Of a DNA stretch of 64,000 nucleotides, positions 30,165-33,458 are shown in pieces. Source of the stretch: an uncultured Rhodospirillales bacterium. GTDB taxonomy: Bacteria > Pseudomonadota > Alphaproteobacteria > Rhodospirillales > UBA2165. Location: the NCBI GenBank assembly GCA_913055735.1, contig CAJXKD010000001.1, positions 2,204,281-2,268,280 on the forward strand, in the 5' to 3' direction. Each line of letters starts with the position of its first letter. Position 1 is the first letter of the stretch. The translations under genes and the position numbers were made by a program. A model generated the notes under the pieces. The model had not been told where the DNA came from and made no database searches. It saw nothing but the letters and a program-made list of their open reading frames with translations.

Positions 30165-31124
30165 TTACGCGAACGCCTCGTCCCAGGTGCCTTGCGTCGC
30201 GGCCTTGGAATATTCCGTTGCCCGGTTCTCGAAGAAGTTGGTGTGCTCGACGGCGTTGAGCATGCTGTCGAGCCAGGGCAGCGGGTGCTTCTTCTCGTAA
30301 TAGATCTCCGACAAACCCAATTGGGTTAGCCGCCGGTTGGCGATGTAACGGATGTAGGCCTTGATGTCGTCAGGGGTTAGTCCTTCGACCGGGCCGAGCT
30401 CGAAGGCTAGATCGACGAAAGCGTCTTCATGCGAAACGATGGTTTCGCACGCTTTGTATAATTCGTCGCGCAAATCATCGTTCCAGATCTCCGGGTTCTC
30501 CGAGATGAAGGTGCGGAACAATTTGATGATGGAGGCGCAATGCAGGCTTTCGTCGCGTACCGACCAGGTGACGATCTGTCCCATGCCCTTCATTTTGTTG
30601 AAACGCGGGAAGTTCAAGAGGATGGCGAAGCTGGCGAACAGCTGTAGCCCCTCGGTAAAGCCGCCGAACACCGCGAGGGTTTTGGCGATATCCTCTTTCG
30701 TGCCGACGCCGAATTCCTGCATGTAATCGTATTTGTCCTTCATCTCCTTGTATTGGAGGAAGGCGGAATACTCGGCCTGGGGCATGCCGATGGTGTCCAA
30801 CAGATGCGAGTAGGCGGCGATGTGCACCGTCTCGATGTTGGAGAAGGCCGACAGCATCATCTGCACTTCCGTCGGTTTGAACACCTGGGAATAGTGCTTC
30901 ATGTAGCAGTTGTTGACCTCGATATCCGACTGGGTGAAGAAGCGGAAAATCTGGGTCATCAGATGCCGTTCGGCCTCGGACAATTTGTTGTGCCAATCCT
31001 TGACGTCGTCGGCGAGCGGGACCTCTTCGGGCAACCAGTGGACGCGCTGCTGGGTCATCCAGGCGTCATAGCACCACGGGTAGGAAAACGGCTTATAGAC
31101 CGGCTTGGCATCCAGCAGCGACAT
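30165..31124 (-). CDS. nrdB: Ribonucleotide reductase class I beta subunit
   Basis: 319 residues. The di-iron and radical residues are all visible by comparison with the E. coli protein: Asp67 in FTQSD, Glu98, His101 and the radical Tyr105 in the pattern ETVHIAAY, then ESLH with the last Glu and His ligands. The Tyr identifies a tyrosyl-radical enzyme rather than the Tyr-less class Ic type. It supplies the radical for NrdA. It lies about 50 bp after nrdA on the same strand, so both respond to the B12 riboswitch upstream. Confidence 0.95.
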   Translation of the reverse strand: MSLLDAKPVYKPFSYPWCYDAWMTQQRVHWLPEEVPLADDVKDWHNKLSEAERHLMTQIFRFFTQSDIEVNNCYMKHYSQVFKPTEVQMMLSAFSNIETVHIAAYSHLLDTIGMPQAEYSAFLQYKEMKDKYDYMQEFGVGTKEDIAKTLAVFGGFTEGLQLFASFAILLNFPRFNKMKGMGQIVTWSVRDESLHCASIIKLFRTFISENPEIWNDDLRDELYKACETIVSHEDAFVDLAFELGPVEGLTPDDIKAYIRYIANRRLTQLGLSEIYYEKKHPLPWLDSMLNAVEHTNFFENRATEYSKAATQGTWDEAFA

Positions 31125-31174: not shown

Positions 31175-33058
31175 TTATTGGCAGGCCAGGCACTCTTCGT
31201 AGTCGTTCGATTGGGCGATTTCCACCTGCGCGGCCTCGGAGGTTGTCGCTTGCGTGGACACCACTTCCGCCCGCTGGATGGATTTCGAGCGGCAATAATA
31301 GAGGCTCTTGCATCCCTTCTTCCAGGCCTGAAAGTGGATTTGATGCAGATCGCGCTTGTGCACGTCGGCGGGCAGGAAGACGTTGACCGATTGCGACTGG
31401 TCGATGTGCGGCGTGCGGTCGGCGGCAAGCTCGACAACCCAGCGCTGATCCAATTCGAAGGCCGTTTTGAACACGTCCTTCTCGTCGTCTGTCAGGAAAT
31501 CGAGATGCTGGACCGACCCTTCATTGACGGTAATGGAGCTCCAGGTTTCCTCGTCGTCGTGGCCCTTTTCCGCGAGCAGCGTCTTGAGGTGCCGGTTGCG
31601 CACATTGAACGAACCGGACAGCGTCTTGTGCATGAAACTGTTGCCGCTGATCGGTTCGATGCCCGGCGAGGCGCCGCCGCAAATGATTGAAATGGACGCG
31701 GTCGGGGCAACGGCGGTTTTGTTGGAGAACCGCTCCTTGATGCCGTAATCCGCGGCGTCGGGGCAGGCCCCGCGCTCCTCGGCCAAGGTCTTGGAGGCGG
31801 CATCGACACCGATCTGAATGGACTTGAAAATCTTCTTGTTCCAGGCCTTCGCGATGGCGCTTTCGAAGGGCACCATCTTGGACTGCAAGAAGGAATGAAA
31901 GCCCATCACGCCGAGACCGACCGAGCGCTCGCGCATGGCGGAATACCGCGCGCGTTCCATGCTGTCCGGCGCATTGTCGATAAAGCTTTGCAGGACGTTG
32001 TCGAGGAACCGCATAACGTCCTCGATGAACTGCGGGTCGTCCTTCCACTCGTCATATTTCTCGACATTGAGCGACGACAGGCAGCACACGGCGGTGCGCT
32101 CGTTACCGAGATGATCGATGCCGGTGGGCAGGGTAATTTCGGAGCACAGGTTGGAGGTCTTCACAGTTAGACCGGCAAGCTTGTGATGCTCGGGGAGCTG
32201 GCTGTTCACCCGGTCGGAAAAGACGATGTAGGGCTCACCCACCTCGACGCGGGCGGTCAGCAGGCGGATCCACAGGCTGCGGGCCGAAACGGTGCGGACG
32301 GGCTTTCCGTCCTTCGGGCTGACCAGAGCCCATTGTTCGTCGTCTTCGACGGCGCGCATGAAGGCGTCGGAAACCAGCACGCCATGGTGAAGGTTGGGTG
32401 CCTTGCGGTTGGGGTCGCCGCCCGTCGGACGGCGAATTTCGATGAACTCCTCGATCTCCGGGTGGTCGATAGGAAGATAAACCGCCGCCGAGCCGCGCCG
32501 CAGCGAACCCTGGCTGATGGCCAGGGTGAGCGAATCCATCACCCGGATGAAGGGGATGACCCCCGAGGTCTTGCCGGCGTTGCCGACACGCTCGCCGATG
32601 GAGCGCAGATTGCCCCAATAGCTGCCGATGCCGCCGCCGTTGGAGGCGAGCCAGACGTTTTCGTTCCACAGGCCGACGATGCCTTCCAACGAATCGGAAG
32701 CTTCGTTGAGAAAGCAGGAAATCGGAAGGCCACGACCTGCGCCGCCGTTGGACAGGACCGGCGTCGCCGCCATGAACCATAGCTTGCTGAGATAGTCGTA
32801 GATGCGTTGCGCGTGGGCGCTGTCGTCGCCGAAGGTGCTGGCCACACGGGCAAAGAGGTCTTGGTAATCCTCGCCGGGCAACAAATAGCGGTCGGAAAGT
32901 ACGGCCTTGCCGAAATCGGTCAGATTGGTATCGCGACGCTTGTCGATCTTGACGCGTGGACCTTTGGTTGTCTGGATGGAATCCAGCATGTCCGACGTCG
33001 CATCCTCGCCCAGTGATGCTTCGGTAAGGCTTTCCGACATATTCGTGTTATCCAGCAC
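31175..33058 (-). CDS. nrdA: Ribonucleotide reductase class I alpha subunit, no ATP-cone
   Basis: 627 residues from a GTG with GGAGG five bases upstream. Catalytic residues are Cys115 (PISCFLNE), Asn303-Cys305-Glu307 (NLCSE) and the Cys325/326 region, with the redox pair at the very end in ECLACQ. The enzyme reduces ribonucleoside diphosphates for DNA synthesis. The chain starts almost directly at the ten-stranded barrel region, so the N-terminal ATP-cone of about 90 residues that gives dATP feedback in E. coli NrdA is absent; NrdB has none either. Expression control appears to be at promoter and leader level (NrdR-like box, cobalamin riboswitch). Confidence 0.95.
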   Translation of the reverse strand: MLDNTNMSESLTEASLGEDATSDMLDSIQTTKGPRVKIDKRRDTNLTDFGKAVLSDRYLLPGEDYQDLFARVASTFGDDSAHAQRIYDYLSKLWFMAATPVLSNGGAGRGLPISCFLNEASDSLEGIVGLWNENVWLASNGGGIGSYWGNLRSIGERVGNAGKTSGVIPFIRVMDSLTLAISQGSLRRGSAAVYLPIDHPEIEEFIEIRRPTGGDPNRKAPNLHHGVLVSDAFMRAVEDDEQWALVSPKDGKPVRTVSARSLWIRLLTARVEVGEPYIVFSDRVNSQLPEHHKLAGLTVKTSNLCSEITLPTGIDHLGNERTAVCCLSSLNVEKYDEWKDDPQFIEDVMRFLDNVLQSFIDNAPDSMERARYSAMRERSVGLGVMGFHSFLQSKMVPFESAIAKAWNKKIFKSIQIGVDAASKTLAEERGACPDAADYGIKERFSNKTAVAPTASISIICGGASPGIEPISGNSFMHKTLSGSFNVRNRHLKTLLAEKGHDDEETWSSITVNEGSVQHLDFLTDDEKDVFKTAFELDQRWVVELAADRTPHIDQSQSVNVFLPADVHKRDLHQIHFQAWKKGCKSLYYCRSKSIQRAEVVSTQATTSEAAQVEIAQSNDYEECLACQ

Positions 33059-33231
33059 ATCGACCTCCGATCGTTAATCCCAGAATTCGAGACTCAACAG
33101 CACAGCAATCTCGCACGGCGACTGCCGACCCAAGTCGGTTGGAAGAAGTGGTACATTGGGCGTCGTTTTTGTCGCCCGAGAAGCCCCCTTCATCCCTCCG
33201 CGGTGCACCCCGCCCGGCAGGAACGCCGTTC
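33059..33231 (-). promoter_or_regulatory. nrdA leader between aptamer and start codon
   Basis: This 173-nt stretch joins the cobalamin aptamer to nrdA. It has two small hairpins, CCGAC-TTGG-GTCGG (33125-33138) and GGGCG/CGCCC (33158-33177), but no stem followed by a T-run. The ribosome site GGAGG at 33064-33068 is flanked by ATCG and CGAT, which could place it in a loop. Control of translation start seems more likely than a terminator switch. No coding potential is evident. Confidence 0.5.
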
Positions 33232-33422
33232 AGTCGATGGCAGGTTTCCTGGCTCGCGATTTTCCGCCGTTCCTGTCTTCCCGGTTGCCCAGTGACGTAC
33301 CCGGAACGTGGCGATCCGCTTACAGTTGCGGGGGCAGCTTCGGCTTTGGACGGGCCCTTAAACGGGGCCAAATTTGACGATCCGCACCGAATTCCCTCAA
33401 GTCCCCATGGGAACCATCGACT
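33232..33422 (-). ncRNA. Cobalamin (B12) riboswitch aptamer upstream of nrdAB
   Basis: Read on the minus strand, the conserved blocks appear in order: GGTTCCC then GAGGGAATTCGGTGCGGAT (P3 and entry), GCTGCCCCCGCAACTGTAAG (the diagnostic core), CACTGGG with CCGGGAAG, and the B12 box GAGCCAGGAAACCTGCC. The outer P1 helix forms between AGTCGAT at 33416-33422 and ATCGACT at 33232-33238. These are the established features of the cobalamin aptamer. Adenosylcobalamin binding normally turns the downstream gene off. Here this would lower the B12-independent reductase when B12 is plentiful. Confidence 0.95.
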
Positions 33423-33436
33423 ACTAGATATAGTGG
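33421..33436. promoter_or_regulatory. NrdR-like box overlapping the nrdAB promoter
   Basis: The 16-mer CTACTAGATATAGTGG fits the NrdR-box pattern acaCwAtATaTwGtgt at most core positions (C-T-A, ATATA, G-T-G). It covers the predicted -10 element and start region of nrdA. NrdR is the ATP-cone repressor that binds pairs of such boxes ahead of reductase genes. A convincing second box was not found, which lowers certainty. Confidence 0.5.
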
Positions 33437-33458
33437 GTGCATTGGATTTTGAGGTCAA
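33430..33458 (-). promoter_or_regulatory. Predicted sigma70-type promoter of nrdAB
   Basis: On the minus strand TTGACC (33453-33458) and CACTAT (33430-33435) are separated by 17 bases. The predicted transcription start near 33423 falls exactly at the first base of the riboswitch P1 helix, which supports both calls. Confidence 0.55.

Follow-up and report, generated by a model that had tools for sequence, protein, structure and literature searches.

Organization of the nrdAB locus

The window, the 64-kb stretch of DNA that was analysed as a whole, carries genes for a class I ribonucleotide reductase on the minus strand. The nrdA gene (31175–33058) starts with GTG and encodes a large subunit of 627 residues, which matches NF006577, PF02867, and PF00317. 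It is followed by nrdB (30165–31124), which encodes a small subunit of 319 residues matching NF007186 and PF00268. Both proteins score above the curated cut-offs, NrdA with 1028 versus 620 bits for NF006577 and NrdB with 581 versus 237 bits for NF007186. The motif ETVHIAAY, read from the NrdB sequence, fits the usual metal-ligand/tyrosine motif, and no other small subunit was found in the genome. The B12-independent reductase that the initial annotation had placed downstream of the riboswitch is hence class I nrdAB, as assigned by NF006577, NF007186, and PF00268. Neither NrdA nor NrdB has a match to the Pfam ATP-cone, so control of activity by dATP may be absent. A Shine-Dalgarno sequence of nrdA, GGAGG, is read at 33064–33068 on the minus strand.

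A full-length cobalamin riboswitch aptamer (RF00174) lies 163 nt ahead of the nrdA start on the same strand. The cmscan match runs from 33433 to 33222 on the minus strand, covers model positions 1–189 of 189, and has an E-value of 1.1e-26 in a 2-kb search and 3.6e-25 in the 64-kb window. Its score of 104.8 bits is far over the gathering score of 31.5, which answers the covariance-model check on the minus strand proposed in the initial annotation. Aside from this riboswitch and one tRNA, cmscan gave no matches in the whole window. The RF00174 alignment and the sequence place the aptamer core GCAACTGTAAG at 33329–33319 of the minus strand and the end of the B12 box GCCAGGAAACCTGCC at 33239. The closing P1 helix is formed by the strands GTCGATGG (33421–33414) and CCATCGAC (33240–33233). 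Core, B12 box, and P1, all of which had been claimed on the nrdAB strand, are thereby confirmed. The interval given for them, 33232–33422, is in the right location and falls about 10 nt short at either end.

A putative NrdR box, CCACTATATCTAGTAG, is located at 33421–33436 (minus strand) and overlaps the likely -10 region. It has three mismatches to ACACWATATNTWGTGT, which we take to be the NrdR consensus, and about 1.4 such matches are expected per shuffled 64 kb. A putative -35 element, TTGACC, is placed at 33453–33458 (minus strand) by conservation among the leaders of the family, most of which have TTGAC about 16–20 nt ahead of the box. A generic promoter scan of the nrdA leader found no promoter. 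Comparable boxes with an upstream TTGAC occupy the same position in family members that have the riboswitch as well as in members that do not. It thus seems that a riboswitch was gained, or lost, in the leader that follows an otherwise shared promoter. The genome has an nrdR gene, and NrdR probably also controls transcription from this promoter.

Class II reductases and cobalamin-related genes in the genome

The source genome (3.73 Mb, 3 contigs) carries, beside the class I genes, two different class II genes, located at C1:714462-716834 and near 1011782-1015507 of C2. One protein of 1241 residues is a clear NrdJ (NF005736, 2176 versus 1737 bits). The other, of 790 residues, matches TIGR02504, the adenosylcobalamin-dependent reductase, with 595 versus 400 bits; it falls below the stricter cut-off of NF006417, and its assignment to class II is therefore based on TIGR02504 and its own sequence. 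The nrdJ gene predicted for this genome is thus present twice. Given these two genes, the alternative offered with that prediction, that the cell ties its DNA precursor supply to B12 without a back-up enzyme, is unlikely.

No RF00174 element was found near either class II gene. Three further RF00174 elements exist in the genome, where the switches range from 80 to 137 bits. They precede a CbiM-like gene, a cluster of a TonB receptor and a FecCD transporter (btuB type), and a cobW-cobN cluster adjoined by CobS- and CobT-type genes. From these riboswitch-linked uptake and synthesis genes, the cell appears able to both make and import cobamides.

Occurrence of the riboswitch ahead of nrdA in relatives

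We scored 24 genomes of the family for a riboswitch directly before nrdA. It is present in three genomes of genus g8, whose NrdA is 86–87% identical to that of the window, and in one genome of genus g2, whose NrdA is 63% identical and represents a second NrdA clade. The remaining nrdA-bearing members have no riboswitch at this position. As most nrdJ-bearing family members are among those without it, the switch is not required alongside nrdJ.

A class-wide draw comprised 144 alphaproteobacterial genomes, in 63 of which nrdA was counted at an identity of at least 60%; nrdJ was scored as a second large-subunit match. Of the 30 genomes with nrdJ, 8 have the riboswitch ahead of nrdA, versus none of the 33 without nrdJ. 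The Fisher p of 0.0015, which counts related genomes as independent, is only indicative, since the sample consists of relatives and includes some incomplete genomes. In a larger draw, nrdA genes of the second clade are commonly preceded by the riboswitch. The nrdA of the window belongs to the more widespread clade, in which the riboswitch was seen only in genera g1 and g8. A motif search was also run on 80 nrdA loci of named genomes, among them Sneathiella, Acetobacteraceae, Thalassospira, and SAR11. It revealed no riboswitch ahead of nrdA, with the proviso that such a search could miss divergent riboswitches and that some contigs are short upstream.

We also looked for riboswitch remnants in clade-1 relatives that have no RF00174 match. 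Their alignments do not rise above shuffles, and the one exception, G002, belongs to the second clade. Its leader (L137, about 318–560) is without an RF00174 match, yet aligns to the riboswitch of G001 with a z of 16 versus shuffles. It keeps the L13 motif described below and not the B12 box, and is thus a decayed or variant cobalamin riboswitch.

The leader between aptamer and nrdA

We compared the leaders of 21 alphaproteobacterial nrdA genes with the riboswitch. Two elements stand out. The L5 loop of the window aptamer contains the segment CCCCGC (33328–33333, minus strand), which was read from the sequence and is near-invariant in the 21 leaders. Just past the aptamer lies the motif GGGCGGGGTG (33206–33215, minus strand), whose GCGGGG is able to pair with the CCCCGC of L5, the proposed kissing partner. 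In nearly all of the 21 leaders, GGGCGGGG or a close variant is found 19–25 nt past the B12 box, which is the expected position of L13. A hairpin is predicted around this motif in 20 of the 21, with a stability not above that of shuffled flanks (mean z -0.5). Since both loops are nearly invariant, covariation cannot support the L5–L13 pairing. In one leader (L135, from G011), the L13 region is duplicated (GGGCCGGGCGGGATGAG and GGGCCGGGCGGGATGG), with AUG there in place of GUG.

No intrinsic terminator was found in the nrdA leader. Sequestration of the nrdA ribosome site under control of L13 was modelled and set aside: the predicted accessibility showed no consistent shift among the modelled states, a result that is weak negative evidence because L13 was mis-set in several leaders, that of the window (G000) included. 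The leader has a mild excess of C over G (p about 0.05 versus shuffles). By exclusion and by analogy, the output of the switch is likely a block of translation and/or Rho-dependent termination.

Proposed regulation and alternative readings

The aptamer, its target genes, the two nrdJ genes, the co-occurrence of switch and nrdJ, and the conserved L13 motif are the observations from which we start. Taken together, they make it very probable that the nrdAB leader is a cobalamin riboswitch of class-I type with a putative L5–L13 kissing loop, acting as an OFF switch; here we infer both the ligand, adenosylcobalamin, and the sign of regulation. When plentiful, adenosylcobalamin would bind the aptamer, and the L13 hairpin of the occupied aptamer would dock on L5. 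Docking would then lower nrdAB expression, not by an intrinsic terminator but by a block of translation and/or Rho-dependent termination, and deoxyribonucleotides would come from the class II NrdJ enzymes. Under B12 shortage, nrdAB would be made, from a promoter to which NrdR is presumed to bind. As the genome also has two B12-dependent reductases, the switch probably turns off a spare enzyme at high B12.

The step from docking to shut-off might involve an upstream ORF. A possible ORF of 39 codons (33074–33193, minus strand) occupies the stretch leading up to the nrdA Shine-Dalgarno sequence: it begins in or beside the 3' arm of the predicted P13 hairpin and stops 15 nt short of the nrdA start. 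Docking of P13/L13 could hide its start and leave it untranslated, a special case of the OFF-switch explanation that we regard as unlikely. Its outcome, to which we give the same low credence, would be either termination by Rho within the exposed leader or a loss of translational coupling for nrdA. The mild C-over-G excess of the leader is in line with such a route, as is ppe2 of Mycobacterium tuberculosis, which depends on such an ORF (PMC11260477). Against it, the equivalent ORFs of relatives vary so widely in length and stop position that we rejected a conserved upstream ORF, the Shine-Dalgarno-like GGAGGG is just 1 nt from the ATG, and an ORF of 39–44 codons is not rare by chance, so the one seen here may be a chance ORF. 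If true, the route would parallel, in Alphaproteobacteria, the riboswitch-uORF design of mycobacteria.

Two further readings depart from the OFF switch itself, and both appear very improbable to us. The opposite sign of regulation would follow if the 3' strand of P1, CATCGACT, paired with GGTCGATG over the Shine-Dalgarno sequence and start of nrdA, such that the B12-bound fold frees the ribosome site. The 8-bp complementarity exists in this genome and is part of the minimum-energy structure predicted for the 206-nt leader, but the full 411-nt fold retains P1 and does not form the pairing. Furthermore, each of three close relatives has one mismatch, the clade-2 leaders are without the pairing, and an ON switch runs contrary to the expected repression of a B12-independent isozyme. 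Mimicry between the P1 strand and the nrdA start was therefore rejected on account of the mismatches and the full-length fold. It is just as hard to credit that the aptamer has degenerated and lost its function. The equivalent leader of G002, alignable to the G001 aptamer and without an RF00174 match, looks decayed, which speaks for this idea. The window aptamer, by contrast, retains an intact core, B12 box, P1, and L5/L13, and its 104.8 bits fall inside the range of 80–137 bits that the genome's other switches span.

Comparison with known systems

The OFF switch proposed here follows a rule put forward long ago, namely that B12 represses B12-independent reductases where NrdJ exists (PMC545781). 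The Streptomyces precedent invoked in the initial annotation is real: riboswitch-mediated B12 control of class Ia nrdABS is established there (Borovok 2006, as cited in PMC4991794), and in Streptomyces coelicolor adenosylcobalamin controls the nrdABS operon (Borovok et al. 2006, as cited in PMC4991794). Going by that citing account, S. coelicolor resembles the present case in that a cobalamin riboswitch precedes class Ia nrdAB and the genome has a class II nrdJ; it differs in being an actinobacterium and in having an extra nrdS, whereas here there are nrdAB only and two class II genes. In Cutibacterium (Propionibacterium) acnes, an nrd-box over the nrdAB promoter is followed by a cobalamin riboswitch in the leader, like the putative box and the riboswitch in the window, and nrdJ lies elsewhere in the genome (PMC3848588). 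Much of the nrdAB transcription in C. acnes stops ahead of the first gene (PMC3848588). C. acnes belongs to another phylum, its nrdDG is also led by a riboswitch, and the stop before nrdA was seen there, whereas the present system is known from its sequence (PMC3848588). The B12 elements of delta-proteobacterial nrdDG likewise concern a B12-independent reductase in genomes with NrdJ and were proposed to follow the same logic, although the enzyme is of class III and here of class I (PMC545781). In M. tuberculosis, a class I switch likewise controls a B12-independent isozyme (metE), and ppe2 has the L5–L13 pairing proposed here together with a short ORF that separates the switch from the gene; unlike the mycobacterial uORFs, the one here is not conserved and is a predicted ORF (PMC11260477).

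The arrangement is thus already known from other bacteria, and the present case repeats the design in Alphaproteobacteria. A literature search, thin on subscription papers, found none on alphaproteobacterial nrdAB riboswitches, and we do not claim a first description. For an environmental alphaproteobacterium and its class, the findings support the rule that bacteria subject a B12-independent reductase to B12 control only if they have a B12-dependent one to replace it. The 21 alphaproteobacterial nrdA leaders with their common L13 motif form a set for studying switches without an intrinsic terminator. Finally, one riboswitch-preceded nrdA, at G167:C1:2668687-2670445 (L150, L151), is split across two frames with an in-frame TAG. 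It is possibly a pseudogene or a sequencing error, and is consistent with loss of a repressed isozyme.
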